64,000 bases of DNA from Bacteroidota bacterium. GTDB lineage: Bacteria > Bacteroidota > Ignavibacteria > Palsa-1295. The notes beneath the pieces were generated by a model. It was not told where the DNA came from. It worked only from the letters and a program-made list of their open reading frames with translations, and did no database searches. The stretch lies in assembly GCA_030706745.1 (NCBI GenBank), contig JAUZNX010000008.1:62001-126000 (forward strand). The letters run 5' to 3'. The position numbers and the translations under genes were made by a program. Below, piece by piece: positions 11,509 to 42,850 of the stretch; the stretch's first letter is position 1, and every line of letters begins with the position of its first letter.

Positions 11509-11551
11509 AAGTAGAAAGAAACCCACAAAAAGTATCCGCAAGTGGCGATTC

Positions 11552-18760: not shown

Positions 18761-18907
18761 CCTCGTGGGTGCTTAGAGCGTCTGAGATCCATTTGTCGTG
18801 AATGTGTCAATGTTGTGTGGCGCTCGCACGATTTCGTATGGGGTGGAACAATCCAGCGCCGGCGGGTGTCGCTAGTGCGTCGCGCTGTTCTTATTAATTT
18901 CGATCTG

Positions 18908-21900
18908 ATGCTTGTCCGATTGTTGTCTCGCTATTCGCCGATTATCTTGATGGCAGTACTGGTTTCGCGCCAGGCTGATGCCTCCTGGACCAAGCTTCAT
19001 CCCGTTCCGGGAAATGATCCCATTACTGCATCCTGGTTTTTCGATCCGATGAACGGATTTATCGGCTATCAGATCCAATCAGTCACGCCTGTGCTCCGGA
19101 CCTCCGATGGTGGCCAGAACTGGCGTGCTGTCACATTCAAGCCTGCGCTGACTGTTGGCAAGACCCATCGGGTCACCGATATCTGGTTTCGTGATTCATT
19201 GACCGGCTGGATGACGATGGATTGGCAGCATGACCTGACCGATGGGGTGCTCTGGCACTCGACCGATGGCGGTGCGACCTGGGTGCAAATCACCACGGTA
19301 ACGTCCATGCAATCGCCAGGTTGTGTGTGGCAGACGCCTGCAGAGACCATTGTTACTGAATCAAATGGACTGGGTATTTGGAGGTCAACCGATTCTGGAG
19401 CGACGTGGACTACGCAAGGCACGCGGCTGAATGGCCTCGGATTTATCAATAGTCTGGTCGGAGCATGCACCGCGGATCAAAATCATTATTTCCTCTATAC
19501 TGCTGATGGAGGGATCAACTGGACCCAGCCAAGTGTACCGAATAACTTTTTGCATGAAGCTTGGAGTGTCTATCCATGGCGAAAGGGTGGGATGTTCATC
19601 GCAGTGCCAGAGGATAGTATTCCGGGTGGTGGATCCTTCGTTTACAGAACCAAGCCCTTTTATCCCGGCCTGTGGACGAGAGGGGCGACGAAGCTTCCGT
19701 TTCGAACTACCGGCCACATTGCTGGTGTCGATAATCTTATCTATATCCAGAACTCTGGTACGATTCCCGGAGCGGATTCCGGCTTGTATCGTTCGCTGGA
19801 TACCGGCAACACGTGGAAGAGCGTTGGCGGGCCCAATGAGGATTGCGACACACGGTTTTCTGTGACGGGATGCGGAGACGTGGTGTATGCATTCGATAAC
19901 TACGGCAACATCTATAAGACCATCGATGGCGGAGATGGATATCAAATTCCGCAGTGCGTCTTTATTGATAAAGATACGCTTCGGCCGATGGTCTCGGCCA
20001 TTTGTGATTCTACTCGGAACACCTACTGGCTGCATAACACGAATTACGGGGCGATCTTTATTCAGGACCTGCGCATCATCGATACAGTCCGAACGCCATG
20101 GAAGACCTCGGCGGTGTTTTTCGACAGCATTCCAACACCCTACTGGGTAATCAATCCGAAGGATTCGGTTTCGCTGGATCTGGGCTGGCGGCCGATCCGG
20201 ATGATGGATTCGACCGCTTCAGATAGCGCCATTCTCCGTGTGATCTATTTCACAACCTACCTGAACCGGTTCGACACGGTGTTTTTGCCGGTTAAGTTGC
20301 GGGCATTTTCCAATTCGGCACAGTACTCACTCAGCACGAGTGCCGTGCGTGCAGATTCCATCTCGCCTTGCTATGCATATGATACTGTGCTTTCTATTAC
20401 CAATCTTGGCTGTGACACGCTACGTCTGACCAAGGCACAGCTTTCGATTCTGTCTGCCTGGTCGATCACTGACACATCTGGAAAACAGCTCACACTTCCG
20501 GCAATTATTGCCCCAAACACCAGCTTCCGATTCCGACTTGGCGCATTGCCGAATGGTTTGAAGTCTATTTCGGACTCTCTGCAGTTAAAGATGCACTTCC
20601 AGGGACGCGACACGAATGAGAAGATTAGACTCGAACTTTCGGGGCGGTACACGTCGCCGCTCACGTCACTTTTGCCCATGCAATTCGATTCCCTCGCGAC
20701 TTGCGTGAGCATGGATAGCACCGTCTCGATTACCAACTCGGGCTGCGACAAACTCGATATTACACAAGTGGATCTCAATGGTGCGGACTGGTCGTTGCTC
20801 GATACCAACGGTCAATCGATTGCATTTCCCATCTCCGTTCTGCCGGGCACTCATAATGTGTTCAAGATCCGATTTGCACCGAAGGTGATCGGCCAGAAGC
20901 ACGGGACGCTGACGCTCCATATCAAGTATCTCGACTCAGCGAGTACTGTCACGATGCAACTCGATGGCACGGGCGTCGATGCCGGTAGCTTTTCATACGC
21001 GAGAGCGTTCGATTTCGGCGCCGTCTCGGTCTGCTCGTATTACGATACGACGGTTATTTTCCGCAATACATCGTGCAGCGCCATTACACTGCAAAGTCTT
21101 CAGATCGGCAATGGTTTTACGCTTCTTGATGCTGGCATGCTGCCCGCAACGGTTGCAGAGGGGAGCGGGCTCGCACTGCACATCCGATTTAAGCCTTCGG
21201 ACAAAAGCGTCAAAAGCGGCCAGGCCATTATTCGATACTTAATGGATGGTACCTACATCGATGATACCATCGCGCTCGTCGGTACGGGTACCTCCGGTAC
21301 CTCGACTTTGGAATCGAAGTCTCCACTGACGGCGCAGAGCTTCACACCAAGAACCGAGTGCGATCACACAGATTCTGTATCGTTCGTTCTATTCAATAGC
21401 GGCTGTGATACAACCCGCGTCACTGCTCTGAGCTTTGATGGCACGCTTGCACCAACGTTCCGGGCTACTGCAAACAAGCTGTTGCCGGCCACGATCATCG
21501 GTACGGATTCCCTTCGTATCACGCTTGGTATTGCGCAACTTGTCGAAGGGTCATACTCGGGAAATCTGCATATCCAGTTCATTCTTTCCGATCGTTCAGT
21601 GCATGATTCTCTTGTGCCGGTGACTCTCACGGTATCGCGCGGTCCGCGTTCAATGAAAATGGAAACCACAGCGATCGCATTCGGAACGATCAGCGCGTGT
21701 ACGCCACGCGATACGGTCATTGTGTATTCCGATACGGGTTGCGCCGCGATCACGATTTTTGCCCGCGACATTGCTGGTACCGGCTTCACACTCAGCAAGC
21801 AGGGGATCGATCCCATCGTGCTCAAGCCGGGCGAGAGCGACACGCTTCACGTTCATTACGATGGCTCCGTTTCCGGGCCAATTCAGGCTACTGTTACTGT

Positions 21901-22723
21901 CAGTTCGAACTCGGATGTCAATCCTATTCGGACCGTAACGGTCAGCGCCACGTCTTTGCCATCCGAGAGCATCAACTTCGTGCTCAAGGTGTCGAAGACG
22001 CCGGTACTGGCCGGTGAGCAACTAATAGTGGGACTCTATCCGGATCGCAATGTGAGTATTGCGGCGATCACTTCACTTTCGGGTGTGCTCGATTATTATG
22101 ACGATGCCTTCGAAAGTATAGTCGCGCCATCCTCGATGGCGGGCACGACGCTGGCCTGGAACAGTGTGCGCATCGGGCGTCACAACCGGTCGTCGTTTCA
22201 GGTTTCAAATGCGAGAGGTTTTCAATTCGATACGACCATTCCCGTACTTTCAATACCTCTCGTTGCGGTGGTTGCCGATTCCGTTGGTGGCGACATTTTC
22301 GTGGACTCGCTTCGGATGAGTGGCGCCACTCCAAATGCTGCGGATTGTGTCGAATCGAATATGCTCGCTTCAGTGCAAACAGGCCTTACCATCCAGTGTA
22401 ACGACAGCCTGCTGATCGGAACGTTACGGAACGAGCCGCTCCTGCTCATCGCGCCGCCAAAGCCAAATCCGGTTACGGCACAAACGGGCTTTACAGCCGA
22501 CCTGGATCTTCGCGCCGCCTGCGATGGACGCGCCGAAATTTCCGTGAGTGATGCATTGGGTCGATCGGTCTCGAAGCAAAGTATTGCGATAGCCGGCAGG
22601 AATCCGGCTGAGCTAACACTCAATCTCAATGCGTTTCCTGCCGGGACATACTATTACGCAATCACATTTACGTCAGCCAACGGTGCCTTCCGGAAGATGG
22701 GATCGCTGGTACTAATGCGATAG
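18908..22723 (+). CDS. Giant T9SS surface protein: Ycf48/BNR-like propeller plus anchor-D-like repeats
   Basis: About 1271 residues from ATG 18908 (MLVRLLSRYSPIILMAVLVS, a signal-peptide-like start). Residues roughly 25-360 are repeats of the kind TSDGGQNWR, STDGGATWVQ, STDSGATWTT and TADGGINWTQ, as in Ycf48/BNR propellers. Then come several Ig-like units of about 110 residues, each with Cys-Asp-containing starts (SITNLGCDTL, SITNSGCDKL, FRNTSCSAIT, LFNSGCDTTR) resembling choice-of-anchor-D/HYDIN-type domains. A cohesin-like segment (about 1040-1150) and a C-terminal T9SS sorting domain (PKPNPVTAQTGFTADLDL, then AGTYYYAITF) close the protein. It is a paralogue of the next gene. Confidence 0.8.
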   Translation: MLVRLLSRYSPIILMAVLVSRQADASWTKLHPVPGNDPITASWFFDPMNGFIGYQIQSVTPVLRTSDGGQNWRAVTFKPALTVGKTHRVTDIWFRDSLTGWMTMDWQHDLTDGVLWHSTDGGATWVQITTVTSMQSPGCVWQTPAETIVTESNGLGIWRSTDSGATWTTQGTRLNGLGFINSLVGACTADQNHYFLYTADGGINWTQPSVPNNFLHEAWSVYPWRKGGMFIAVPEDSIPGGGSFVYRTKPFYPGLWTRGATKLPFRTTGHIAGVDNLIYIQNSGTIPGADSGLYRSLDTGNTWKSVGGPNEDCDTRFSVTGCGDVVYAFDNYGNIYKTIDGGDGYQIPQCVFIDKDTLRPMVSAICDSTRNTYWLHNTNYGAIFIQDLRIIDTVRTPWKTSAVFFDSIPTPYWVINPKDSVSLDLGWRPIRMMDSTASDSAILRVIYFTTYLNRFDTVFLPVKLRAFSNSAQYSLSTSAVRADSISPCYAYDTVLSITNLGCDTLRLTKAQLSILSAWSITDTSGKQLTLPAIIAPNTSFRFRLGALPNGLKSISDSLQLKMHFQGRDTNEKIRLELSGRYTSPLTSLLPMQFDSLATCVSMDSTVSITNSGCDKLDITQVDLNGADWSLLDTNGQSIAFPISVLPGTHNVFKIRFAPKVIGQKHGTLTLHIKYLDSASTVTMQLDGTGVDAGSFSYARAFDFGAVSVCSYYDTTVIFRNTSCSAITLQSLQIGNGFTLLDAGMLPATVAEGSGLALHIRFKPSDKSVKSGQAIIRYLMDGTYIDDTIALVGTGTSGTSTLESKSPLTAQSFTPRTECDHTDSVSFVLFNSGCDTTRVTALSFDGTLAPTFRATANKLLPATIIGTDSLRITLGIAQLVEGSYSGNLHIQFILSDRSVHDSLVPVTLTVSRGPRSMKMETTAIAFGTISACTPRDTVIVYSDTGCAAITIFARDIAGTGFTLSKQGIDPIVLKPGESDTLHVHYDGSVSGPIQATVTVSSNSDVNPIRTVTVSATSLPSESINFVLKVSKTPVLAGEQLIVGLYPDRNVSIAAITSLSGVLDYYDDAFESIVAPSSMAGTTLAWNSVRIGRHNRSSFQVSNARGFQFDTTIPVLSIPLVAVVADSVGGDIFVDSLRMSGATPNAADCVESNMLASVQTGLTIQCNDSLLIGTLRNEPLLLIAPPKPNPVTAQTGFTADLDLRAACDGRAEISVSDALGRSVSKQSIAIAGRNPAELTLNLNAFPAGTYYYAITFTSANGAFRKMGSLVLMR

Positions 22724-22785
22724 CGCATGATGTAACTTTTTGTCTATCGAAGGGTTATAAAGGCGTCTTTATAACTCTTTCGTAA

Positions 22786-25206
22786 ATGAGGATTCCCTTC
22801 TCGATCGGTCGCAATGCAATCGTATTTTTGGCGATCCTGTTCGCCGCGTTCCATCCCACAGATGCTTACGCGCAGTGGACCCAAATTGCCACGTTTCCCC
22901 GGCCCATCAAATGTGCGTTCTTTTTCGATGAACTCAATGGATTCATCGGCTTCGGTGGAAGCACGAATCCAATCCTTCGGACGACCGATGGCGGAGCAAC
23001 CTGGTCTTCTGTTTCAGTGCCAAGCGGTGGGTTCTCGGCAGTGGATGATATTTGGTTTCGGGACCATCTGGACGGATGGGCTGCACTGGAGATCGAGCAA
23101 AGCGATCAGTATTTGTGGCATACAACCGATGGCGGGTTGACTTGGACGGCACTCAACCAGTCCTTCGCGGTTAAATCAGTGCGCGAAACAAGCCACGCAC
23201 TCTCGATTGCCGATGATGCAGTCGACATCTCCCTCGATGGCGGAGCCCACTTCATCCCGCGGATGCCCACCCATTATTATGGTCTTGGATTTGTGGATGA
23301 TTTGCATGGCGTGGCATCGCCATATCAACTTCCACAACTGGCTTATACATCCGATGGGGGCCAGACCTGGCAGGTATCGGCCACAACATTCAATCCGCCA
23401 TTCGAGGCATGGGGAGTCACCGGGTTTCCTGGCACTCCAGACTTCTTCGCGGTCGGCGAGGACTTAGCGAATAATGGCTCTCGAGTAATCCATTCCAGTG
23501 ACTATGGTGTAAACTGGACGGTACTAAATACACTTCCATTCCGAGCCGTTGGCGATATTCAAACCAGCGGCGGCGCGCTTTTCTTCCAATCACAGACAAC
23601 AGCCATCCAACCGGGTTTGTATCGATCAATCGATCGTGGAGCAAACTGGGCATATATTGGCGGTCCTGCAAATGATTTTGATCACCGCTTTGCCGTTACG
23701 AGTTGCGGGAGTGTGATTTACGCTTTCGATAACAGCGGCGGAGTATACAAGACGACGAACGGCGGCGATGGACTGGTGCTCGGAGCACAATTTGCCACCA
23801 CACTTTCCACGGGCGCAATTACGTTCGCCGCGCGGCGCGACTGCGGGCCGCTTGACTCCATCTCATTCGAAATCTGGAATCCCGGATGCGATACGCTGAC
23901 CGTGGAGAGCGCCTCACTCGAAGGAAATATCAGTCCGGCACTGGTAAGCTGGGCCGACTCAACATTGCCAAGCCGTATTGTTGGGTACAAGCTCGGAGTT
24001 ACCGTTGCGATTGCAGACCTCCTCGCGGGTTCGTACAACGGCTCGTTCCGTATCCGCTACCACTTCGCTGATGGCGTGACACACGATACACTGATTCCAG
24101 TCGCGGCTCTGATCACGAAAGCCGTGCCACAGCTCGCGATCGATTCCAACGCGATGGAGCTTGGCATCGTCCATGCCTGCGCCACGCGCGATACGATTAT
24201 CCATTTCAAGAACACGGGGTGTATTCCTGTGAATATAATGGGATGGAATCTCTCGCAATGGGATAGAAACTTCAATGTGTTTGGGTCAGGAAAGTATCCG
24301 CCGTTTCCGCTTGCTCCGGGCGATTCCGATTCGGTCCATGTCACGTTCAATGGCCTCGTGCCCGGCATTGCGTATGACACAGTGATCTTCTTCGCCGGGG
24401 TGGCTCCGGATTCGACCTGGCGCATTCCCGTGAGTGTCACAGTTCCCGTTGTCGATTCGGTGAGCTTCCGCCTGACCATGCAAAGTGCGATTGCGAGTGG
24501 TGAGCACGTATGCGGCGACATCTTGCCGGACCGTAACTTTCGAGGTAAGGGGTTGACCTCTATCTCCGGCAGACTCATTTTCCCGACCGACAATTTTGAT
24601 CTCGAACAAGCAACAGCGTCGTCAGGTTTGACGATCACGCAGCAGACGCCCTACACATCTGGACGCAATACCATTGTGCCCTTCAATCTGACTGGCTCGG
24701 GCGATCTGTCATTGGATTCAACATTCCCCATCGCACACTTTTGCCTACGCGCGACACTAACCGATACAAACGACTTCCGCGTCACGCTCGATTCAGTCCT
24801 GCTGAATGGCGGCGACCCGACCTATGCACGTTGCACGCTCGCCACAAATGGCTCCGTGACTCAGTCCACACTTGCGCTGGCATGTGCTGATAGTTTGTTG
24901 ATTGGTAAGATGGGAGGGAAGACGCTTTTGCTCGTGGCACCCGCCAGACCAAATCCGGTGACAGGGGAGAATGACTACTCCACCTCGCTGCACCTGCAAA
25001 CGGCGGAAAACGGTACGGCCAAAGTCCAGATATGGGACGCACTCGGTCGGCTCGTCTCACAGGATGAGATTGTCATAGAGAGGGGATCGCACGATTATCA
25101 CTTGAAGCTTGCGAATGCTCCCTCGGGCCGATATTCGTATGTGGTGCGGTTCATCTCGGCACATGGCGAGAGCCGGGCGAGGGGATCGGTGGTGGTGATG
25201 AGGTGA
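22786..25206 (+). CDS. T9SS surface protein, shorter paralogue of the upstream giant protein
   Basis: 806 residues. It has a signal peptide (ending TDAYAQ), then a Ycf48/BNR-like propeller (TTDGGATWSS, TSDGGQTWQV, SIDRGANWAY), two anchor-D-like domains with the same Cys spacing (EIWNPGCDTL, HFKNTGCIPV), a cohesin-like unit (SGEHVCGDILPDRNFRG onwards) and a T9SS type A sorting domain (ARPNPVTGENDYSTSLHL, then SGRYSYVVRF). Domain order and many local motifs match the upstream protein, with fewer anchor-D repeats, so the pair arose by tandem duplication and repeat loss or gain. The function at the surface is unknown. Confidence 0.8.
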   Translation: MRIPFSIGRNAIVFLAILFAAFHPTDAYAQWTQIATFPRPIKCAFFFDELNGFIGFGGSTNPILRTTDGGATWSSVSVPSGGFSAVDDIWFRDHLDGWAALEIEQSDQYLWHTTDGGLTWTALNQSFAVKSVRETSHALSIADDAVDISLDGGAHFIPRMPTHYYGLGFVDDLHGVASPYQLPQLAYTSDGGQTWQVSATTFNPPFEAWGVTGFPGTPDFFAVGEDLANNGSRVIHSSDYGVNWTVLNTLPFRAVGDIQTSGGALFFQSQTTAIQPGLYRSIDRGANWAYIGGPANDFDHRFAVTSCGSVIYAFDNSGGVYKTTNGGDGLVLGAQFATTLSTGAITFAARRDCGPLDSISFEIWNPGCDTLTVESASLEGNISPALVSWADSTLPSRIVGYKLGVTVAIADLLAGSYNGSFRIRYHFADGVTHDTLIPVAALITKAVPQLAIDSNAMELGIVHACATRDTIIHFKNTGCIPVNIMGWNLSQWDRNFNVFGSGKYPPFPLAPGDSDSVHVTFNGLVPGIAYDTVIFFAGVAPDSTWRIPVSVTVPVVDSVSFRLTMQSAIASGEHVCGDILPDRNFRGKGLTSISGRLIFPTDNFDLEQATASSGLTITQQTPYTSGRNTIVPFNLTGSGDLSLDSTFPIAHFCLRATLTDTNDFRVTLDSVLLNGGDPTYARCTLATNGSVTQSTLALACADSLLIGKMGGKTLLLVAPARPNPVTGENDYSTSLHLQTAENGTAKVQIWDALGRLVSQDEIVIERGSHDYHLKLANAPSGRYSYVVRFISAHGESRARGSVVVMR

Positions 25207-27782: not shown

Positions 27783-29066
27783 ATGCACTTTTACTACACC
27801 TACTACCCAAAGGTCCGCGAAATCGAAATCCCCGACGCCAATCTAATTGGGGTCTATGGCCCGCTCGAAACCGCACATCCGGATCGCGAGAAGATCCTCC
27901 GCGACGCGTTCGAGAGCCCGGTCAATAGCCCGCGCCTCGAAGAACTTGCCACTCCGGAAGACCGCGTGCTGATCGTGCTTGACGATGGGCTCGAGCCTAC
28001 GCCTACGGTCTTCCCATTTTACCATGTCGTTCAGGCGCTTCATGCGGCCGGCGTGCCGGATGCGAATGTGTCAGTTCTTATTGCCAATGGTGGCCATCGC
28101 GCATCTACCGGTGCCGAAGTGGACCGAAAAATCGGGGCCGAGATGCATCGGAGATTCGCCGTCTATCAATCTGCGCTCAACGCGCGGGATGATAGTTGGC
28201 ACACGTTCGGGACTGCACGAACCGAAGGCGGAGTCACGAGCGTCATAGCCGACAGACGACTTCGAGATGCCTCACTAATTGTTGGCATTGGAGGGACGTA
28301 TCCCTCTCGTTTCAAAGGATTTACGGGTGGCGGCTCACTTGTTTTCCCAGGTCTTGCCAACGAAAGCACACGGGGAGAAATATGTCTGGAATCCGCTGAA
28401 CAGCCATCGATTGACGTGCTTGGCCATGCGGACAATCCGGGCAGAAAGCTTGTCCGAAGTCTACTCCAGTTTATCCCGGCCTTCAAGTTTTGCGTGGATG
28501 TAGTGGTGGACAGGACACTCACGACCGTTGCCTGCATCGCGGGCTCGCCTCAGAGTGTTTATCGCGTCAGCGCGGATGTCGCCGCCCGCATGACGAACTT
28601 CACGATTCCTGAAAAAGCGGATATCGTCGTGATCGATCCTCATCCCTTTGACACGAATATTTTCCAGGCCGCGAATGCATTATATGCGTCACTCGGTGTC
28701 CTGAAGGAAGGCGGGGAGATCATTTGCGTCGCGCCATTGAACGAGGCAATTTCGGCGCTATCTGGCGAATTGGCCAAGCAGTGTACGAAGACGCGCGAAG
28801 GACTCATTGCAAGTAGCCGTTCAGGCGACCTATCCCACCATCCGCAAACCGGCGCTAGGCTCGCGGCCATTCGTGAAGTCATTGATGTTGCGTCGCGTAT
28901 AACGTTCGTCACAAATGGTGCTGGCACGGATGATCCCGCCAAATTCGGATTTGCATGTACCAACGATGCTCAGGCGGCGCTGAATGATGCTCTGGCGAGA
29001 AAAGGCGCCAGCGCTCGGGTTGCGCTCATCTCGCACGGTGGGCTGGCAGTACCGAGAGTGGCCTGA
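27783..29066 (+). CDS. LarA-family (DUF2088) protein with altered nickel-pincer site
   Basis: 427 residues. The fold is that of LarA, the nickel-pincer-dependent lactate racemase, and its homologues: DRVLIVLDDGLEPTPT at about 60-75, an IANGGHRASTG segment with His105 (the LarA His108 position) and SRFKGFTGGGSLVFPGLANE at about 175-194. In LarA the last motif normally reads PHxxAGFSGGAK, giving a His and the Lys that holds the cofactor, with a further His about 16 residues on. Here the His and Lys positions are occupied by non-His residues and Ser, and no following His is seen, so nickel-pincer chemistry is doubtful. No larB/C/E genes adjoin. It may be a structural or altered-substrate homologue. 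Confidence 0.75.
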   Translation: MHFYYTYYPKVREIEIPDANLIGVYGPLETAHPDREKILRDAFESPVNSPRLEELATPEDRVLIVLDDGLEPTPTVFPFYHVVQALHAAGVPDANVSVLIANGGHRASTGAEVDRKIGAEMHRRFAVYQSALNARDDSWHTFGTARTEGGVTSVIADRRLRDASLIVGIGGTYPSRFKGFTGGGSLVFPGLANESTRGEICLESAEQPSIDVLGHADNPGRKLVRSLLQFIPAFKFCVDVVVDRTLTTVACIAGSPQSVYRVSADVAARMTNFTIPEKADIVVIDPHPFDTNIFQAANALYASLGVLKEGGEIICVAPLNEAISALSGELAKQCTKTREGLIASSRSGDLSHHPQTGARLAAIREVIDVASRITFVTNGAGTDDPAKFGFACTNDAQAALNDALARKGASARVALISHGGLAVPRVA

Positions 29067-29082: not shown

Positions 29083-31761
29083 CTATCGCTGGAGAGCCAA
29101 AGGAATTACCGATCTCCCCGAAGGCAATTCGATGGCTAGCCGATAGCTGCCATTCGGCAGTTGAGGCACGGTAAATGTTCGCTGCCGAGGTCCGGATAGC
29201 AAGATCGTGCGAAGGACCTCTTGACCGATTGCATTGTAGAGCACTGCGGGGACGCTGCCAAGAGCATCGGGTAAGCCAGCGACCGAGAGTGACAGTTGAT
29301 CCAGCGGATTCGGAAAGATCGCGAGACTCTCGCTCGCTGTGAGCGGTGCTACGCCTTGGAAGTAGTCGGCAGACCCGGAAAGTGGGCGCAAAGTAAAATT
29401 GTCCGGGCCGAAACTACTTTCTACGGCACTGTCGTCCCAGCCCTCATTGACGAATCGAATGGTGTGAGTTCCAGCTGCCAGATAGATATTGGGCAGGATG
29501 GTCGAGTCGCGATAAATCGTCCCCCAGGGCACGTCCAAGAACCAATCATGGGAGCCGAGGTCTGTGGAATCAATGTAGGTACGGTAAATACCGTAGCGGT
29601 CTCCGATCGTGCTAAAAACGGTCGTTGAAAATGTATCAGCAAATGGCACGGCAAATTGAAACGCAAAGACTTTCCCTCGCTCATGGTATGAATAGCAGAA
29701 CTCGATTGTGCCCTGACTCCAGTGCTTGCCAGAAAGAGAAATGTAGCTGTATGTAGCCTCGTCTTTGCCCTCAATTACAGGCAACATTTCGAATTCGAAA
29801 TTGAGGGTTCGCGTCACAAACAGTGTGGAGTCGGCAATGACCGAGGCACCTGTTGCCCGTAACATCCTAACGGAATATCGTCCTTGCGGAACCCACGGGA
29901 GGTGTGTCTTAAGCCGAACGACGCCGTCAGAATCAGCCATGATGCTTGGCATTTGCTGAAAGAGTGTATCTCCGAGGAGCAAAGAGAGTCGTTCATGGGA
30001 CAAAAATCCATAGGCGCGGAGTTCTATGGAGTCCCGTTCTCCGAATACGCGGCCAGCGGTATCCTGAATGTAGAACAATTTTGGTGCTCCAAGGACTGTA
30101 ATCGGCTCTGGTTTCACAATCCCATTGAGCGAGAGTGTATGATCACTGATTCTCCAATTTGAAGGTACCATGAGTCGAATGAGAATCGAACCGTCCGCTT
30201 GACTTTTGCCTCGATAAATCGTATCCGCGTCGAGCATCAAGACCAACGCTGTATCCGGCGTAAAGCCCGCGCCGGTGATGGTCCATTGGTTGCCAGCGGT
30301 GATGGTATCATTGGAGTCATAGAAGGGCGTCCAGCGCTGGTAATAAAATGCGGTTGTGCGATAGGTTTGGGTATAATCCTCTCGAAATCCATGGCCGAAA
30401 TCAATATCCATGGACTTCGCATAGTTATAGGGCGCATTAATATGGAAGCGATACATCGTGTAGCACCAATTTGGACAACCTCGAAAGGGGTATGAGAAGG
30501 ACGGCGGAGGAATCGGAGGCTGGGCTTGAGAGGTGTCAAGGTAATACCAGCCGCCATCACAATAGTCTTCCGTGCCAGTATAATGCAGCGAGGCTCCCCG
30601 GACGTCATAAGGCAACGAGTCCACCATGAGATAGCCATCACCTTCCATGAAATTTGGAGAAGCCAAATGCGCATTTGGAAAATTAAAGATTGCACCGACA
30701 TACCGCCCTGTGCCTTTCGTATGCAGCAGCGGGTGGAAGACAGTATATGGAATGTCTGTCGTCACGTGGTATTGAGTGCTAAAGTATCCCAACGAGGAAT
30801 TCCAGATTGTATCACGATAGGCAATGTTGCCATCCAATTGCACGCTTGTTGAATTGCCATTGGTAATAGAAATGAGTGCATTTACCTTGAATGGCATGGG
30901 AAAGGATAGATCCAGAGTCCCGTTTGCGGAATCGACTAAAATGCGGAAGGCATGAACCGGATGCGCACCCAAGGCGATGCCGAACAGATCCGCAAGCGGA
31001 AGATCAACGCTTGGTGCTGGGCAGTTGTCCCAATGAATCGAAAACCTGAGACGTTGTAGTAGAGCGGTATCGAGGGCATCAAAGTGAAAATGAATGTTTT
31101 GGATATAACCGGGACCTCGCAGATTGGCAAGAATAAGTGTGTCGCCGGCGGCGACCTTAGTTAAAAAGGAAACCGATCTGCCCGATGGCCATGGATTGGA
31201 TCTCCAATAATTCGCATCTGCCGCTTTTAGATATCCATCAAATTCGTTGCTTCCCAATCGTGGCAATTGATTGGCATCGATGTGTTGCCATTCTGCATTC
31301 CTTATCGGCCATTCTCCATCGTGAGTCCAGCGAAAATTATGACGGTAAGGGATCTGTGTTTCAAGTACCTCGGCACCGGCGGAGGCGGTATCGAAGGGCG
31401 GGCCGATCAGCCCATGCAAGGATGTAAAAAACTCGGTCGTTGTGCCTTCGATCAAAACCGAGTCATCTACCCATAGTTTCATCCTTGTTCTAGGTGGAAT
31501 AATGCCATTCGGGTACACCGCCCATAGATGTCGCAGAATACCCGCTCCGGTATCGCCTGCCAATATAACGTACCCATCCAAGTCCTTCGGCCCATCATAC
31601 CGTCCAACGAGTGTTCGCAGTATACTCCCGCTATCTGGTCCACCCAAATCAGCAATCGCAAGCGGTTCATTTATCCGGCGGTAGGGATCCAGCGTTTGAG
31701 CGTTGACGTCGAAGGCTGCGAACGACATAAGAGCGACCACCAAGTACACTCGGAATAGCAT
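29083..31761 (-). CDS. DUF2961/GH172-like T9SS-secreted protein (first of a tandem pair)
   Basis: About 892 residues from ATG 31761 (MLFRVYLVVALMSFAAFDVNAQ, a signal peptide). The N-terminal half matches the DUF2961 domain: GAGILRHLWAVYPNG, DLFGIALG, LSFPMPFKVNALISI, and the signature GTEDYCDGGWYYL preceded by FMEGDGYLMVDSLPYD. DUF2961 proteins include the GH172 family (difructose anhydride and arabinofuranan-active enzymes), whose catalytic acids lie near the GTED motif. After it come Ig-like spacer regions and a T9SS sorting domain (IFPNPLDQLSLSVAGL, then LPNGSYRLAIELPSG). The substrate is not predictable; a cell-surface or secreted glycan enzyme is plausible. Confidence 0.75.
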   Translation of the reverse strand: MLFRVYLVVALMSFAAFDVNAQTLDPYRRINEPLAIADLGGPDSGSILRTLVGRYDGPKDLDGYVILAGDTGAGILRHLWAVYPNGIIPPRTRMKLWVDDSVLIEGTTTEFFTSLHGLIGPPFDTASAGAEVLETQIPYRHNFRWTHDGEWPIRNAEWQHIDANQLPRLGSNEFDGYLKAADANYWRSNPWPSGRSVSFLTKVAAGDTLILANLRGPGYIQNIHFHFDALDTALLQRLRFSIHWDNCPAPSVDLPLADLFGIALGAHPVHAFRILVDSANGTLDLSFPMPFKVNALISITNGNSTSVQLDGNIAYRDTIWNSSLGYFSTQYHVTTDIPYTVFHPLLHTKGTGRYVGAIFNFPNAHLASPNFMEGDGYLMVDSLPYDVRGASLHYTGTEDYCDGGWYYLDTSQAQPPIPPPSFSYPFRGCPNWCYTMYRFHINAPYNYAKSMDIDFGHGFREDYTQTYRTTAFYYQRWTPFYDSNDTITAGNQWTITGAGFTPDTALVLMLDADTIYRGKSQADGSILIRLMVPSNWRISDHTLSLNGIVKPEPITVLGAPKLFYIQDTAGRVFGERDSIELRAYGFLSHERLSLLLGDTLFQQMPSIMADSDGVVRLKTHLPWVPQGRYSVRMLRATGASVIADSTLFVTRTLNFEFEMLPVIEGKDEATYSYISLSGKHWSQGTIEFCYSYHERGKVFAFQFAVPFADTFSTTVFSTIGDRYGIYRTYIDSTDLGSHDWFLDVPWGTIYRDSTILPNIYLAAGTHTIRFVNEGWDDSAVESSFGPDNFTLRPLSGSADYFQGVAPLTASESLAIFPNPLDQLSLSVAGLPDALGSVPAVLYNAIGQEVLRTILLSGPRQRTFTVPQLPNGSYRLAIELPSGRSVIPLALQR

Positions 31762-31908
31762 GATATCCTGACAAGTTGACGAAATTCGAAGTTGCGAATT
31801 TGACTGTGCTTTGACAACGATTGTGGGCTCAGTGTTAAATCGAATTGCCTGGCACCGATCGTGCACCGCGATTCAGATGTTCCGCAATTAGCTTGCGTCT
31901 ACTGGGCA

Positions 31909-34560
31909 TTAACGCAAAAGCACCAAAGGTAGCAGTCTAGTCTGCGCTGGCATTTCTATCGCTATCCAATATCGGCCGTTAATGAGAGGAGGTATCGTGA
32001 GGGTTCGTGGACCGCTTGTCGAGAGTAGAATCCCACGATGGACTGGTGAGCCAAGGTCATCAAAGACAGTGATCGGGATACGGTCGAGAGAATCGGGCAA
32101 ACCCGCGATCGAAAGGCTCTCCTTATCCAGCGGATTTGGGAAAATCGAGATTTCTTCGGTTGGTACTGATGGGAGCACACTCTGGAAATAGCCTCCGAAG
32201 CGTGAAATTGGCGTAAGCGTGAAATGATCTGGTGCAATGCTATTCTCCACGGCGCTGTCATCCCAGCCTTCGCTAACAAATCGGATTGTGTGGAGTCCGG
32301 CTGTGAGATAGGTATTTGGAAGCAAAGTAGAATCGGGAAAGACAATGCCCCATGGCATATTCAAATACCAATCATGGGAGCCGAGGTCCGTTGAATCGAT
32401 GAACGTGCGATAGATACCATACCGGTTTCCGATTGTACTGAACACTTCTGTGGAGAATGTGTCTGCATACGGTACAACAAAATTAAATGCCACAGTCCTG
32501 CCGAGCTCGTGGTTCCCATAACAGAATTGAATTGCTCCCTGGCTCCAGTGTTTGCCATAAATTGAAATATAGCTGTAACCGGAATTTTCGTTACCCTCAA
32601 CCTGAGGCAACCCTTCGAATTCGTAGTTAATAGTTCTTGTGACGAACAATGAGGAATCGGAAATTACTGAGGAGCCGGTCGAGCGTAGTAATTTCACAGA
32701 ATGGCGACCTTGTGGAACCCAAGGGAGATGCGTAATCAGTCGCACAACGCCATCAGAATCCGCGACGACATGCGGAGTCTGTTTGAACACACTATCTCCG
32801 AGGAGAAGCGTAAGTTGTTCACCAGACTTAAAGCCATATGCCCGAAGCTGAATCGAATCAGATTCGCCAAACATGCGGCCCGCGCTATCCTGAATGTACA
32901 ATAATTTTGGAAGACTCAGGACTGTGATTCGCTCTGGCTTAAGTATTCCATTGACGGCAAGTGTGTGGTCACCAATCGTCCACGACGCTGGGACCACTAG
33001 CTTGAATGCAATCCTCCCATCGGATTCTGCTTTGCCTTGATAAATCGTATCCGAATCGAGAACCGCCGCGATGCTCGTGTCCGGCGCAAACCCCGATCCA
33101 GTGATAGTCCAGATATTGCCGGCTGTGATCGTGTCAGAGGATGGATAAAAGGGCGTCCATTGCTGGTAGTAAAATCCAACAGTTCGGTAGGTAGTGGTAA
33201 AATCATCGTAAAATCCATGGCCGAAATCGACATCAATCGAACGCGAAAAGTTATACGGCGCATTAACGTGAAATCGGTAAACAGTGGTTGGCCATTGGGG
33301 GCAGCCTCGAAATGGCAGGGAAAACGGAACCATCGACAAGAGTGTATCCATTGGCGTGAAGAAATACCATCCTGAATTGCTATAGTCCTCGATTCCATCA
33401 TAGTGCGTCGAGATCCCCGGAAAATCATAGGGGAGGGAGTCTACCACAACGTAAGCATCGCCCTCTAAATACGAAGGCCACGCGTGAGGATAGGGGACAT
33501 CGAGCAGTGCTCCAACGAACCGCCCTTTACCTTTAGCGTGGAGGACTGGTTGCATTATGTGATATGCAATTTCTGGGGTAACATGAAACTGCGCGCCCAA
33601 ATATCCCCACGATGAGCACCATGCAGTATCCTGATGGGTTATAGCTCCACTAAGATCGATAGGGTTCTCGCTGAGATTTACAACCGCAATGCGGGCGTTC
33701 ACCTTAAAAGGCATTGGGAAGGTAAGATTGTAGCTTCCAGCCGCAGTATCGACCGAGATGAACATCGAATGAATGTCCTTTCCACCGGAGGAGACGCCGA
33801 ACAGATCTGAGAGAAGCATTGACACACTAGAACTCGGTGAATAATCCCAATAGATATTTATCCAGAGATGATCAAGTAATGTTGCCTTAGCCGCTGGGAC
33901 TGACAAATGAATCTGCTCGAGATATGCTGGTCCTGAGAGATTCACAACAACTGCGGTATCGCCTGGGGACACATGGAGATTGAAATTCGTCGGGCTTATC
34001 CTTTTGTACCGGTTAGAACTTCCGTATTTTGCAGTTGCAGTCAAATGATCCGCTGCCAGTTCGGGGCTTCCTAGGCGTGGTAATGCTGTCCTCGAAGTAT
34101 CGACATGCTGCCAGATGGCACAACTCCAATGCCATTCCCCGTGGTGAGTCCATCGAAAATTTCGACGAAAGGGAATTTGCACTTCGCAGACCTCCGCGCC
34201 GGAAGAAGCAGTATCGAAAGGCGCTGAAATGAGCCCATGTGGTAGGGTAAAAAAATCTCTGACCGAGCCATGGACGAGCAACGAGTCATCGACCCATAGT
34301 TCCATGGTGTCTGTGTTGGGATCTGCCCCGTTGCTGTATACTGCCCACAGACTACGAATGATCCCCGACCCGGTATCGGAAGCTTCGAGCGTGTCGGTGC
34401 CGGTCTTGAAAGCTACCAGATTACTTCCGCTGTCCGCCCCACCGAGATCAGCGATCGCAAGCGGGTCGTTGATGCGACGATAAGGATCCAACGTTTGTGC
34501 TGAGGCTTGGTACCCTAACGCGAGAAGACCAATAACGAGAAGACAGCAGCGAAGAATCAT
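31909..34560 (-). CDS. DUF2961/GH172-like T9SS-secreted protein (second of a tandem pair)
   Basis: About 883 residues from ATG 34560 (MILRCCLLVIGLLALGYQAS, a signal peptide). It aligns with the preceding protein along its whole length: both begin QTLDPYRRIN, carry the DUF2961 segments (GSGIIRSLWAVYSNG, LTFPMPFKVNARIAV, YLEGDAYVVVDSLPYD) and the T9SS end (IFPNPLDKESLSIAGL). The GTEDY motif of the first copy reads GIEDYSNSGWYFF here, keeping Glu-Asp but changing Thr to Ile. The two copies have diverged considerably, so the duplication is old. The copy order suggests one transcript, with 147 bases between them. Confidence 0.75.
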   Translation of the reverse strand: MILRCCLLVIGLLALGYQASAQTLDPYRRINDPLAIADLGGADSGSNLVAFKTGTDTLEASDTGSGIIRSLWAVYSNGADPNTDTMELWVDDSLLVHGSVRDFFTLPHGLISAPFDTASSGAEVCEVQIPFRRNFRWTHHGEWHWSCAIWQHVDTSRTALPRLGSPELAADHLTATAKYGSSNRYKRISPTNFNLHVSPGDTAVVVNLSGPAYLEQIHLSVPAAKATLLDHLWINIYWDYSPSSSVSMLLSDLFGVSSGGKDIHSMFISVDTAAGSYNLTFPMPFKVNARIAVVNLSENPIDLSGAITHQDTAWCSSWGYLGAQFHVTPEIAYHIMQPVLHAKGKGRFVGALLDVPYPHAWPSYLEGDAYVVVDSLPYDFPGISTHYDGIEDYSNSGWYFFTPMDTLLSMVPFSLPFRGCPQWPTTVYRFHVNAPYNFSRSIDVDFGHGFYDDFTTTYRTVGFYYQQWTPFYPSSDTITAGNIWTITGSGFAPDTSIAAVLDSDTIYQGKAESDGRIAFKLVVPASWTIGDHTLAVNGILKPERITVLSLPKLLYIQDSAGRMFGESDSIQLRAYGFKSGEQLTLLLGDSVFKQTPHVVADSDGVVRLITHLPWVPQGRHSVKLLRSTGSSVISDSSLFVTRTINYEFEGLPQVEGNENSGYSYISIYGKHWSQGAIQFCYGNHELGRTVAFNFVVPYADTFSTEVFSTIGNRYGIYRTFIDSTDLGSHDWYLNMPWGIVFPDSTLLPNTYLTAGLHTIRFVSEGWDDSAVENSIAPDHFTLTPISRFGGYFQSVLPSVPTEEISIFPNPLDKESLSIAGLPDSLDRIPITVFDDLGSPVHRGILLSTSGPRTLTIPPLINGRYWIAIEMPAQTRLLPLVLLR

Positions 34561-38698: not shown

Positions 38699-41600
38699 CT
38701 ACCGCTGCAACACAAACTCTCTCGTCCTCACGGTCTGACCATCTGTCAGACGGCAGAAGTAGGTACCGGAAGGCAGATCGCTCGCTGAAAGTGTGGCATC
38801 GTACGATCCAGGCTGCACGGCGACCTTATCGGCAATGCGGCGCACTTCATTGCCCATCACATCGAAGATGGAAATCGAAATGACAGCCGGAGCCGCGACC
38901 GAATAGCCAATTTTCGCGAAGTCATGCGCAGGATTCGGTCGGATGTCCCGAATAATAGGCGGAATTGTGCCATTCGTGAGCATGTATTGGATCGACTTCG
39001 TCCCGCAAACCGGATCGAGCTGGAATGTCGCGCCAATCGTGGTATCGGCTGCATAGCACAATGGCGTTGAGTCTTTATCGAGCCAGACGGCATTGGCCAG
39101 CCCGATTGCTGTCGTATCGCTCTTGCTCACCATGACCCGAAGGTTCAGCGTGGCCAGTGTGGTCTGCCCACCGAGCGGCGAGCTCGAAAGCAGAGTGAAG
39201 GTCCGCGTTTCCATGTCGGTGGCCGGATTATAAACCGGATTGGATGCGACAACCGGCGGCGTGACCGATATATACTGGAACAGATCGCGCTTCCAGCTCA
39301 CATCGACACGGTAGCCATAGGCCCCCTGGGTGCCATTATCCGGAGTATTGAAGTCGATCGCGTTATCGATGACTATTGGGACCGCAAGCGTATGATCAGG
39401 GAGCGCCTGATAGGCGGCTGGCGTCGAGGCCATCGCGCCAATGGCGAATGTGCGCCGGACTCCGACGCCAGTGCCCTGCAATAGCACGGTTTCCGTCCAA
39501 AGGCTGTCGGTCCCATCGACCTTTTTACCTTTAAGGTTCAAGGTCAATGCTGCCTGCCGGACGCCATGAGCCATCGGTGTGAAGCGGATGGGGATATAAA
39601 GGGTATCGTGCGGATTCACATTCGCGGAATTGAATCCACCCGGTATTCCGAAATCCCCCGGATTCTTCCAGTCACTCGTCGCGTCAATCGTGGCAGAGAG
39701 TACTGTGATCGTGTCCAAGCTTCCGGTATTGACAAAGAAGGCAGTCTGCTGGTTCGTCCCGCAGGGCCCGCCGGCCACAGCGACGTAGGTCTTTGGATGT
39801 GTCGTCCCATTTGAAGTGTCGCCAACGTTATAGAACTTGGCAACAAGCGCGAGGGAGGAGTTTTCACATCCACTCGTGCCCTGGACCTGCGCGGTATACG
39901 TGCGCGTCTCGGAACCCGTAGCTGTGATGGTCACGATTTGCTGCGCGCCGGGAGCAATGGTATATGGTGGCAATGGCAACAAGGTAAAAGCGCCAGCATC
40001 TGCTCCGGAAACATTGTAGGAGCCGATGGTGAGTGGTGCATTGCCCGAGTTGGTGATCGTGAAGCTGCTGGTGGTGCTGTGGCCAATTCGTCCGTAGCCG
40101 AGATCGATCGAGCTCGGCGCAAACGCGATGCGCGGCGTCACCAATTGCGCCGTGATTGCAAGTGTAGGTTGCGGACTTGGCGCTGCTGCGTATGCTACGA
40201 CCGTCGCGTGTCGCGGTGTAAAATCGTATCCATTCAGGAGCGAATGGAATTGAATCTCTAGCGGCACCTCATTCTCATTCCCCATTCCCGGATCAAGAAC
40301 GAACGGGAATGACTTCGTAGGAACAGTCAGTGTAAAGTACTTCGCATCTGGGCCCGCCAGTCCAATGGAATCGATGACCTGACCCTTTGCGAAATTGTTA
40401 TACAACGTGTCCCGTAGCAGTGTATCAGTACAGCCGATGCTAAAGGTCTTGTCGTACGATGTCAGTTTGGCGCCGGCCGGCAGTGCGAGCCCCGTCAGCA
40501 GTGAGGTATCCTTGATGGAATGTTGGAATTTTGCGGTATTGAGATTTGCAAAGATCACGTGGCCGGAGAACGTCCCCCATGATTTCGGATGGAAGCAATA
40601 CAGGACGTCCACGCTTTGGCCGGGCGGAATGACGATCGGAAACTTCTGATTTGGATCGATCGAGAAATTCGGATCGGTCACTAAATCCTGGCTCGTGATT
40701 GTGAGCGTCGCCTTGCCGGGGTTGCGAAGCGTAAGCTGTTTGCAGAGGGTCTGGCCACTATCGACCTCGCCGAAATTGACATCGCTGGCATAAATCAGCG
40801 GTGTAATTCCCGTGCCCTTCAGAAGATACTGATATGTGGCACATTGGGAGAGAAGGCGTAACGTATCGGTCGAAACGACGCCGGTATCGACTGCTTGAAA
40901 ACAGAGCGAGAGCGTTGTTGTCGCGGCCGCATGGACCGGCGATAGTCTCCTCGGACTAACGGTGAAATTGCCGCCCTGCGCGATTCCATCGATCGAATCG
41001 GACTCCGCCATGAAATCACCGGCCGCAAGGTTCGTAAGGGTCAGCGTCATGCAGCTATCGGTTCCAACCGGGATGGCACCAAAGTCATACGTTGGGGCCG
41101 GCGTGACCGAAATCTTCGGTGCGTAGTAGTGGTATTGGTAAACCGTGTCGTTGCCTGCGCGATCGACGGTAAAGATTGCGGCGTATGCATCCTGCGTCGG
41201 ATCCACCACGGAGAGCTTTGCTACGGTCGTGCTATCGCCAACGATGAAACCGGGATCGGGCGTCAGCGAATAATTATACGAGGGCGTGTCCCAGCGGGCA
41301 TCACCGGCATCGGTGATGAGCGCGATATACGCAAGGCGGGTATCATCGAACGAGAATCCGTTTGTAATTCTCCTCGGTTCGAAGAAACGGAGCGTGTAGG
41401 TCCCGCACGTGCTATCGAGTATCTTCACAAGCGGCGGAAGTGTATCGGGCGAAATGATATTCTGGGCCATACCGGTCGGCCAGCCATAACCCTCATAGAG
41501 TGAGAAGCCATATTGGTATGCGCCAAATGGTACCGGTCCTTTGGCAACGTAATCGACGTTCGAGCCTCCAAGCAGGAGGACGCGATACCCACCCATGACC

Positions 41601-42850
41601 GGGTTTGTGTTGGGGAATTGCGCGTGACCGGCAAACTGAGAGTTGCCGGTGCCGAGCGGCTGTCCGTTGATTGTGATCTTCTTGATCGAATCATCGCGCG
41701 CGATGAAGGTCACATAGTTATTGAACGTCCCACTTTTTGCCGGTGTGGGCGTCCGAAAGATCATTTCCTTTTCGAACTGTTGCTGCGGCGTAAAGAGGAC
41801 CATAAAGGGATCTGCCGTGCCCGGGTCACCATTGTAACCCTGCGAATACGAATACTGCGTAACGATAAACTTCTTGTGGTTAACAGATGTGTAGACCGTC
41901 GGATCGGTGACCAGTTCATCGTCCACGACATCGCCGGCATTCAGATAGTAGGTGCCATTGGGACCATTGCTCTTGTATGTAATCTGATTGCCATCTTCTC
42001 CGGAAATGATGCGAATAAAATCGCCGCAGGCCGTGCGGCCAGCCATCGGCATATCGAAGTATTGCGTTCCCCACTTATCGACGGGCGGGAGCATCTCGAG
42101 AAAGTGATCGGCCGAACGCACCCAATCGGTTGGTACGGATGAGATCTCATGACCGGTCATAACCGCGACGGGGCGGGAGGTCGTGATGCTCGTGCCGGAG
42201 AGATCGTTCGCTCCGATGTCGTTGCCAGGGGATTGAACGAGGTATGTCTGTCCCCGGCTCAGCGTGAAGGTCCATGGCACTCCGGCCAAATGTCCGCCGC
42301 GCGTATCGGATTTGGGCGTAATCGTGACGTTGGTATTATCGTAGGGCGCGACGATCAAAAACTCGCCATGGGTATTTCCGCTAAATACTCCATCGGGATA
42401 ATTCACCGTGTAATACTGTGTCCCGTAGGAAGTAATGGGCAACCCGAGGAATCCATCCGGAGACCCTCCGATACAGGAGGTGCATGTCCAAACCGAATAT
42501 CCATACAGCGTGATGGGATTGGTGCTCGTCACATGCACCGCTCCATCCGGTGTAATCGTCTCGCTCTTAGACGTCAGCGCCCTGCCATCAAGTGGAAGAT
42601 CTTTGATCTCGTTCGGAGCCAGGATGTAGCTCGTAGTTGAAGTGCCGATCGACACGGACACTTTATTCTTCGTCCCCGTAGCGATAAATAGCCGCATCTG
42701 GGCGGCATACGCGCCGAGTGCAGGATCCCCATTGGGCATAAAGCCGACCCAATAGTCGGTGCCGGAGGATGAGATGCCCTGCGCGCTTAATTGGCAGGTG
42801 ACAGTGGAGAGAAGGACGACTGCGGTGAAAAGTCGAACCAAATATTTCAT
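38699..42850 (-). CDS. Giant T9SS surface protein with IgGFc-binding-like N-terminal domain
   Basis: 1383 residues. A signal peptide (MKYLVRLFTAVVLLSTVTC, QLSAQ) is followed by an IgGFc-binding-protein N-terminal-like domain of about 430 residues: SSGTDYWVGFMPNGDP, NKVSVSIGTSTTSYILAPNE, SVWTCTSCIGGSPDGFLGLP, SVNHKKFIVTQYSY. Several anchor-D-like repeats follow (for example YDFGAIPVGTDSCMTLTLTN, INFGEVDSGQTLCKQLTLRN in outline), then a cohesin-like unit and a T9SS sorting domain (IRPNPAHDFAKIGYSV, ASDLPSGTYFCRLTDGQT). Such proteins are predicted adhesins or large surface structural proteins. A clear terminator follows. Confidence 0.78.
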   Translation of the reverse strand: MKYLVRLFTAVVLLSTVTCQLSAQGISSSGTDYWVGFMPNGDPALGAYAAQMRLFIATGTKNKVSVSIGTSTTSYILAPNEIKDLPLDGRALTSKSETITPDGAVHVTSTNPITLYGYSVWTCTSCIGGSPDGFLGLPITSYGTQYYTVNYPDGVFSGNTHGEFLIVAPYDNTNVTITPKSDTRGGHLAGVPWTFTLSRGQTYLVQSPGNDIGANDLSGTSITTSRPVAVMTGHEISSVPTDWVRSADHFLEMLPPVDKWGTQYFDMPMAGRTACGDFIRIISGEDGNQITYKSNGPNGTYYLNAGDVVDDELVTDPTVYTSVNHKKFIVTQYSYSQGYNGDPGTADPFMVLFTPQQQFEKEMIFRTPTPAKSGTFNNYVTFIARDDSIKKITINGQPLGTGNSQFAGHAQFPNTNPVMGGYRVLLLGGSNVDYVAKGPVPFGAYQYGFSLYEGYGWPTGMAQNIISPDTLPPLVKILDSTCGTYTLRFFEPRRITNGFSFDDTRLAYIALITDAGDARWDTPSYNYSLTPDPGFIVGDSTTVAKLSVVDPTQDAYAAIFTVDRAGNDTVYQYHYYAPKISVTPAPTYDFGAIPVGTDSCMTLTLTNLAAGDFMAESDSIDGIAQGGNFTVSPRRLSPVHAAATTTLSLCFQAVDTGVVSTDTLRLLSQCATYQYLLKGTGITPLIYASDVNFGEVDSGQTLCKQLTLRNPGKATLTITSQDLVTDPNFSIDPNQKFPIVIPPGQSVDVLYCFHPKSWGTFSGHVIFANLNTAKFQHSIKDTSLLTGLALPAGAKLTSYDKTFSIGCTDTLLRDTLYNNFAKGQVIDSIGLAGPDAKYFTLTVPTKSFPFVLDPGMGNENEVPLEIQFHSLLNGYDFTPRHATVVAYAAAPSPQPTLAITAQLVTPRIAFAPSSIDLGYGRIGHSTTSSFTITNSGNAPLTIGSYNVSGADAGAFTLLPLPPYTIAPGAQQIVTITATGSETRTYTAQVQGTSGCENSSLALVAKFYNVGDTSNGTTHPKTYVAVAGGPCGTNQQTAFFVNTGSLDTITVLSATIDATSDWKNPGDFGIPGGFNSANVNPHDTLYIPIRFTPMAHGVRQAALTLNLKGKKVDGTDSLWTETVLLQGTGVGVRRTFAIGAMASTPAAYQALPDHTLAVPIVIDNAIDFNTPDNGTQGAYGYRVDVSWKRDLFQYISVTPPVVASNPVYNPATDMETRTFTLLSSSPLGGQTTLATLNLRVMVSKSDTTAIGLANAVWLDKDSTPLCYAADTTIGATFQLDPVCGTKSIQYMLTNGTIPPIIRDIRPNPAHDFAKIGYSVAAPAVISISIFDVMGNEVRRIADKVAVQPGSYDATLSASDLPSGTYFCRLTDGQTVRTREFVLQR

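Follow-up and report, generated by a model that had tools for sequence, protein, structure and literature searches.

Introduction

The active site of alphaFFase1, a GH172 enzyme, is described as lying between two protomers, the neighbour giving Tyr187 together with Asn31 and Asp33 for a Ca ion (PMC8605356). In that account Glu270 is suggested as the acid/base and Glu291 as the nucleophile. Changes of Asp292 leave about 0.1–1.4% of the activity, Y187A leaves 0.7% and 3.2% on two substrates, and Y187F leaves 90.3% and 30.7% (PMC8605356). A form with 1.5 DUF2961 domains is described for DgGH172b. In solution this protein is reported to be dimeric and to act weakly on pNP-alpha-D-Araf, less on LAM and not at all on pilin oligosaccharides (PMC10115798). 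Among the variants of DgGH172c given in the same source D225A is listed and the adjacent D255 is then discussed; D225A may be a misprint for D255A. The relation of GH172 to the viral double jelly-roll capsid proteins has also been published (PMC8812541), and two xanthan modules, PspCBM84 and MiCBMx, are discussed in PMC10049358.

The GH172 family and its 1.5-domain form are thus already known. What is added here is a test on sequences of how the 1.5 form can work, which puts the residues lent by the neighbour in X, the extra jelly roll at the N-terminus, rather than in the middle jelly roll. The passages covered in a search of the GH172 literature give no account of X completing the site of a partner.

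Results

Two adjoining GH172-type genes

The window (the whole 64,000-nucleotide stretch of DNA that was analysed) contains two GH172-type genes on the reverse strand, as are all features within them given below. P1 (892 aa, motif GTEDY) occupies 29083..31761, with its stop at 29083 and its likely start ATG at 31761 as read from the ORF, and its upstream paralogue P2 (883 aa, motif GIEDY) occupies 31909..34560. They lie head to tail with a gap of 147 bases. Both match PF11175 (DUF2961) well above the cut-off of 27 bits (130.2 for P1 and 123 for P2), and they are 57% identical across 897 aligned columns. The earlier note's description of two adjoining, paralogous but diverged DUF2961/GH172-like proteins is borne out, as is its reading of GTEDY in the one and GIEDY in the other, both seen in the ORFs. 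The N-terminus of each protein resembles a signal peptide whose last letters are AQ (read by eye), in keeping with the secreted character claimed for them. A search of the genome gave no third DUF2961 match.

After the signal-peptide-like start of each chain come X, DUF2961 (jelly rolls JR1 and JR2) and a pair of Ig-like repeats, followed by a MiXBM-like module and, last, a T9SS-like tail. The double jelly roll, consisting of the middle JR1 and the catalytic JR2, was located by Pfam and alignment, and in P1 also by fold (30322..31194 in P1; 33148..34011 in P2). The Ig-like repeats of P1 (29797..30312) match each other with an hhalign E of 9e-12 and their strands are seen in the model; those of P2 (32623..33138) were placed by alignment to P1. 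The model of P1 has a mean pLDDT of 77.4 and a pTM of 0.64, from 17 sequences. Among the matches listed in the fold searches, to which the conclusions are limited, four solved GH172 entries superpose on it with Z of 27.4–28.2 and rmsd of 2.4–2.8 over 268–278 residues, spanning about residues 177–479, and Foldseek likewise places GH172 entries first.

Homologues and the window clade

Homologues were collected in part by scanning contigs with the pattern EDYx[DN][GSA][GA]W[WYF], the best 80 of 365 being kept. A total of 117 were aligned, and one without coverage of both catalytic sites was dropped, leaving 116. A first scan using P2 alone found no relative. The relatives include the MAGs Bacteroidetes bacterium Centralia_MAG_339 and Ignavibacteriae bacterium palsa_1295. 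Of the 13 genomes in the same family-level group, 12 have DUF2961 and the one without it is 67% complete, and 5,716 bacterial homologues have been counted (n = 5,716; PMC8812541); the earlier note's description of a rare family is not supported. In 296 genomes of the phylum a search with P2 gives some match in 30 and a match over most of the length in four.

P1 and P2 belong to a clade of 19 proteins (the window clade), with 15 others from the same family-level group and two more, L025 and L058. Its members share a common domain order, with L015 and L017 incomplete: L015 is split by a frameshift and was counted by the piece carrying the catalytic domain, and L017 is without its start. L015 and L070 (G003:C9) are a homologue split into two overlapping frames, either through a frameshift or through an error of sequencing; 7% contamination is listed for this genome (G003).

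X is a homologue of jelly roll 1

X occupies 31228..31698 in P1 and 34045..34497 in P2, where the Ca-loop region is shorter than in P1. P1 X was assigned by hhalign, profile and fold, and P2 X by alignment and profile. Pfam gives no match in the N-terminal 150 residues of P1, where X lies. X matches JR1 of the same clade by hhalign (E 3.9e-6, probability 87%), and a profile made from 53 X domains finds the N-terminal jelly roll in all four solved GH172 sequences, with E from 1e-19 to 3.6e-13. PF11175 itself is found at E <= 0.1 in 37 of the 53 X domains. Modelled alone, P1 X has a pLDDT of 86.5 and its top four fold matches are GH172 entries (Z 7.9–10.3), followed by Sulfolobus polyhedral virus 1 (Z 6.9). 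Because the aligned ranges extend beyond JR1, the fold alone does not tell which GH172 jelly roll X corresponds to; the profile does.

With an X match well upstream of the nucleophile as the rule, the 116 homologues divide into 65 of the 1.5 form and 51 of the ordinary form. From their sequences P1 and P2 fit the published 1.5 DUF2961 form. No 1.5 form is found among the sequence matches with solved structures, which are four GH172 sequences of 374–460 residues.

Just after the signal peptide the window clade has the consensus DPYxRxxDPRAIARLxGPDS (31600–31700 in P1; 34400–34500 in P2), which is not seen in the other 1.5-form rows displayed.

The catalytic residues are kept in both proteins

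By alignment, with the alphaFFase1 numbering fitted to the printed alignment and counted by hand, the acid/base position (Glu270) is Glu373 in P1 (30643..30645) and Glu366 in P2 (33463..33465), and the nucleophile position (Glu291) is Glu398 in P1 (30568..30570) and Glu391 in P2 (33388..33390). The nucleophile is followed by Asp399 in P1 and Asp392 in P2. Among homologues covering both sites 115 have Glu at the E270 position and one has Asp there, and E291 and D292 are kept in 116/116, although in the scanned set these two (and W298 partly) are fixed by construction because of the pattern EDYx[DN][GSA][GA]W[WYF]. All three positions are kept in 40/40 homologues that were not fetched through the EDY pattern, and both Glu and the Asp are invariant in 19/19 members of the window clade, including P2, while the surrounding residues vary. 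A check for loss of the paired Glu, as the earlier note had advised, found none lost in either protein, with the adjacent Asp also kept.

The same note had given weight to the changed signature motif. The residue before the nucleophile is T in 67 of the 116 homologues, S in 19, L in 18, G and A in five each and I in two; in the subset of 40 free of the EDY pattern the counts are T 23, G 5, L 5, S 3, A 2 and I 2. GIEDY also occurs in L025, a member of another family-level group. The change from GTEDY to GIEDY was rejected as a functional signal on these grounds, and judged from the alignment the T-to-I change is ordinary variation.

Residues lent by the neighbour are found in X

Scored with the X profile, JR1 of ordinary forms has a median of 85.1 bits (18.0–111.1) and the middle jelly roll of 1.5 forms 22.3 bits (0–40.7), a comparison that is free of the bias to which X itself largely owes its 148.7 bits, since the 53 sequences behind the profile are themselves X domains. 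The loop motif [ST]xDx(2-4)NxD, which we take from its place in 4kq7 to hold Asn31 and Asp33, is present in 34/51 ordinary JR1 domains. Among the 1.5 forms X has it in 41/65 (41/46 when the window clade is set aside) and the middle jelly roll in 1/65. The place of Tyr187 is occupied by Y or F in 50/51 ordinary JR1 domains and in 60/65 X domains. The middle jelly roll could not be aligned at this place by profile in 56/65 1.5 forms; in the alignment of the clade it has no Y, F or W there in 17/17 rows. On this sequence evidence it is most likely X, and not the middle jelly roll, that completes JR2 of the partner chain.

The sugar pocket is changed in the window clade

The loop motif is found in X of none of the 19 members of the window clade. 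Trp267 is likewise kept in 0/19, compared with 33/51 ordinary forms and 12/46 other 1.5 forms. At the Tyr187 place, X of the clade has Y in eight, F in six, W in two, I in two and V in one. P1 has Ile and P2 has Trp, the two closest orthologues of P1 having Ile and Val, and in the middle jelly roll the same place is Asp in P1 and Ser in P2. A changed pocket together with a preserved catalytic centre suggests another sugar. To judge by these residues, the changed pocket argues that the substrate is not simply that of the characterised enzymes.

GH183 is not matched in 13 genomes, while the same search finds it in 6/148 genomes of the phylum. No GH32 match is found in nine genomes of the family-level group, and G016, of the same class, has one. 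SusD is not matched in seven genomes of the genus; G007 has one match just above the cut-off, and G014 and G016 have matches.

A putative carbohydrate-binding module and a T9SS-like tail

The module preceding the tail lies at 29368..29811 in P1, identified by fold and profile, and at 32194..32637 in P2, which is a member of the profile and aligns to P1. Residues 651–794 of P1 superpose on MiXBM (7ehg) with Z 20.0 and rmsd 1.8 over 131 residues. The next matches are a Paenibacillus xanthan lyase (6f2p, Z 18.9) and a Paenibacillus xylanase (13.4), and then CBM35 and CBM6 entries. A profile of the module finds 7ehg (E 2.8e-11) and 6f2p (E 1.6e-7), and Pfam gives no convincing match to it (best E 0.042). 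The identity to MiXBM is about 20%. Taken together, the likeness of this putative carbohydrate-binding module to MiXBM points weakly to an acidic exopolysaccharide. By a hand count the same module is present in 19 further distinct GH172 ORFs outside the clade (L005, L026–L029, L031 and others), several of which are ordinary single-DUF2961 forms of about 650 aa.

Both proteins end in a T9SS type A-like tail. That of P1 (29086..29328), found by the TIGR04183 scan, scores 16.7 bits (E 0.0053) when scanned alone, under the cut-off of 23, and in the whole-protein Pfam scan 12.3 against 27. That of P2 (31912..32154) was placed by alignment to P1 and by the result for the clade; a whole-protein Pfam scan gives no tail match in P2. 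TIGR04183 is found at E <= 0.1 in 16/17 tails of the clade, the best with E 1.6e-9. SprA is present in the genome (697.9 bits), which has at least 150 sorting tails above the cut-off (150 of 254 candidates scored); the list of these 150 includes neither P1 nor P2. The earlier note's assignment of both proteins to T9SS is plausible from the sequences, but the signal is weaker than it claimed.

Genomic neighbourhood

Thirteen proteins of the window were compared with ORFs of at least 200 aa in 17 homologue loci, some of which are ended by contig ends. Besides the homologues of P1 and P2, only matches of 22–28% to three repeat-rich surface proteins were found, in 5/17 loci. The lactate-racemase-like, enoyl-CoA hydratase, ispG, prfA and rhomboid neighbours are matched in none of the 17 loci; a GNAT neighbour of 190 aa may escape this search with its ORF limit of 200 aa. 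The lactate-racemase (LarA) family protein (27783–29066, forward strand) faces P1 and ends 16 bases from its stop. It falls below the NCBIfam LarA subfamily cut-offs listed, the best being LarAH6 with 170 of 500 bits. A 1,383 aa protein (38699–42850, reverse strand) combines an IgGFc-binding domain with ASH/HYDIN-like Ig repeats and has a T9SS tail above cut-off, and proteins with BNR and sortilin-like repeats, one with a T9SS tail, are encoded at 9643–11589 (reverse strand) and 18815–25206 (forward strand).

P2 is the faster-changing copy

Changes unique to P2 outnumber those unique to P1, by 121 to 70 when compared with L014 and by 120 to 78 with L013. The unevenness is greatest in the middle jelly roll, where P2 has 31 against nine in P1, and 31 against 14 respectively. 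P2 has Ser, Leu and Gln at three columns that are constant in the other rows, and Asp at the T288 position. By these sequence comparisons P2 is the faster-changing copy. Between P1 and P2 pN is 0.27 and pS 0.76, so that amino-acid sites change much less than silent sites; dating of the duplication by silent sites was rejected, as these are saturated.

In G006, another species of the genus, a decayed tandem copy lies upstream of the full-length gene. It keeps the signal peptide and X and then jumps to the tail, with the last 50 residues in another frame (L053:634-1339 (G006:C84)); the contig has a coverage of 1.45, because of which an assembly fault is possible. G005 has a single gene of this type at that place. 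A copy of the P2 type seems to be dispensable in places, though P2 itself is intact with its catalytic residues.

P1 and P2 are sisters in the tree of the whole length (100/99). In the tree of X alone, P2 groups with the G006 remnant (97/95) and P1 stands next to that pair (92/91), while a grouping of P1 with P2 alone is rejected (p-AU 0.047). By these groupings the genes were probably duplicated before the two species separated. Despite such an early duplication P1 resembles P2 more closely than it does L013 and L014, which gene conversion might explain.

Discussion

A model for the 1.5 form

The sequence establishes the domains of P1 and P2, their catalytic residues, the homology of X to JR1 and, for the clade, that both Trp267 and the N-x-D loop motif are lacking. 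On this basis we consider P1 and P2 to be secreted retaining furanosidases of the 1.5 DUF2961 form with changed specificity, X completing the site of the partner, a reading to which we give a probability of roughly 60%. Its remaining parts, namely the dimer, the completion of the site by X, the catalytic activity and the T9SS sorting, we infer. Several observations count against it: the window clade has neither the loop motif in X nor Trp267; P1 has Ile and P2 Trp at the Tyr187 place of X, where Y187A costs alphaFFase1 nearly all its activity; and DgGH172b, the characterised 1.5 form, acted weakly or not at all on several substrates.

The two proteins would be anomer-retaining furanoside hydrolases of the GH172 kind, secreted from the cell, with the catalytic pair (Glu373 as acid/base and Glu398 as nucleophile in P1) located in JR2. 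In ordinary GH172 trimers JR1 of the neighbour completes the JR2 site. In the 1.5 form two chains would pair into a ring of six jelly rolls, with X of one chain completing JR2 of the other. The middle JR1 would have turned into a filler, giving two active sites per dimer and not three. The module would keep the enzyme attached to a polysaccharide, which could be an acidic exopolysaccharide and of which the enzyme might trim an alpha-furanoside-like end. For the 1.5 form as a whole, which is common (65/116 homologues), the model's prediction is that each dimer has two sites and that X lies at its interface.

A special case of this arrangement would be a preferred heterodimer of P1 and P2, each X completing the site of the other and creating a new specificity, while the module holds on to an acidic, xanthan-like exopolysaccharide. 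The half-sites would then be unequal: P1 has GTEDY but Ile at the Tyr187 place of its X, while P2 has Trp there but a shortened loop and, close to the nucleophile, Asp and Ile. We regard this version as highly improbable.

P2, or both copies, might instead be secreted glycan-binding proteins that do not cleave, the catalytic domain acting as a lectin-like scaffold beside the module. The greater number of unique changes in P2, with Ser, Leu and Gln at otherwise constant columns, its Asp at the T288 position and its shorter Ca loop would all be consistent with such a role, and so would the internal deletion of the P2-type copy in G006 and the lack of Trp267 and the loop motif throughout the window clade. 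Yet both Glu and the Asp are invariant in 19/19 members of that clade, P2 included, and pN is 0.27 against a pS of 0.76 between the copies, which makes a purely binding role unlikely, though one to be taken seriously. A double jelly-roll fold also recalls viral capsids, and capsomer-like rings with a structural role within a surface layer could be imagined: STIV (Z 14.1), FLiP (13.2) and PM2 (12.7) appear among the fold matches, but below GH172 entries that are far stronger (Z 27.4–28.2), and with the catalytic residues kept in 19/19 a role of this kind is scarcely credible.

The alternative closest to the characterised enzymes takes P1 and P2 for exo-alpha-D-arabinofuranosidases or difructose-anhydride enzymes of the ordinary kind, with arabinan or fructan as substrate, a target that the earlier note had raised. 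They share family and catalytic residues with the characterised GH172 enzymes, and the best match of P1 is an exo-alpha-D-arabinofuranosidase. Against this, neither Trp267 nor the loop motif is kept, and P1 and P2 also lack a Tyr or Phe at position 187; that same enzyme (8ic8) does not appear for P2 at E <= 1; and there is no match to GH183 in the 13 genomes searched, to GH32 in the nine of the group or to SusD in the seven of the genus, while G007 has one SusD match just above the cut-off. As the pocket differs from that of the characterised enzymes, an arabinan- or fructan-like target is distinctly unlikely. The members of the window clade are secreted GH172 proteins whose pocket has changed and whose module is related to a xanthan-binding one, which makes the clade a reasonable place to seek a new furanosidase specificity.

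Comparison with known systems

P1 and P2 share with alphaFFase1 (BBDE_2040, PDB 7V1V, Bifidobacterium dentium) the DUF2961 double jelly roll and the equivalents of Glu270, Glu291 and Asp292. They differ in that alphaFFase1 has one DUF2961 per chain and is described as a hexamer (PMC8605356), and in that its Trp267 and the Tyr at 187 are kept in neither P1 nor P2. The best sequence match listed for P1 is 8ic8, the exo-alpha-D-arabinofuranosidase of Microbacterium arabinogalactanolyticum (E 1.6e-13; Z 28.2), a chain of 378 residues with one DUF2961. The module before the tail is alike in profile and fold to MiXBM (7ehg) and to the module of 6f2p; the latter belongs to a xanthan lyase without GH172, whereas P1 and P2 are of the GH172 type. 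In architecture the nearest system is DgGH172b (HMPREF9455_02471) of Dysgonomonas gadei, compared here through its published description (PMC10115798), which like P1 and P2 has one and a half DUF2961 together with GH172. DgGH172b is about 73 kDa, from a theoretical dimer mass of 146,512 Da (PMC10115798), and to the arrangement described for it P1 and P2 add the Ig repeats, the MiXBM-like module and the T9SS-like tail.
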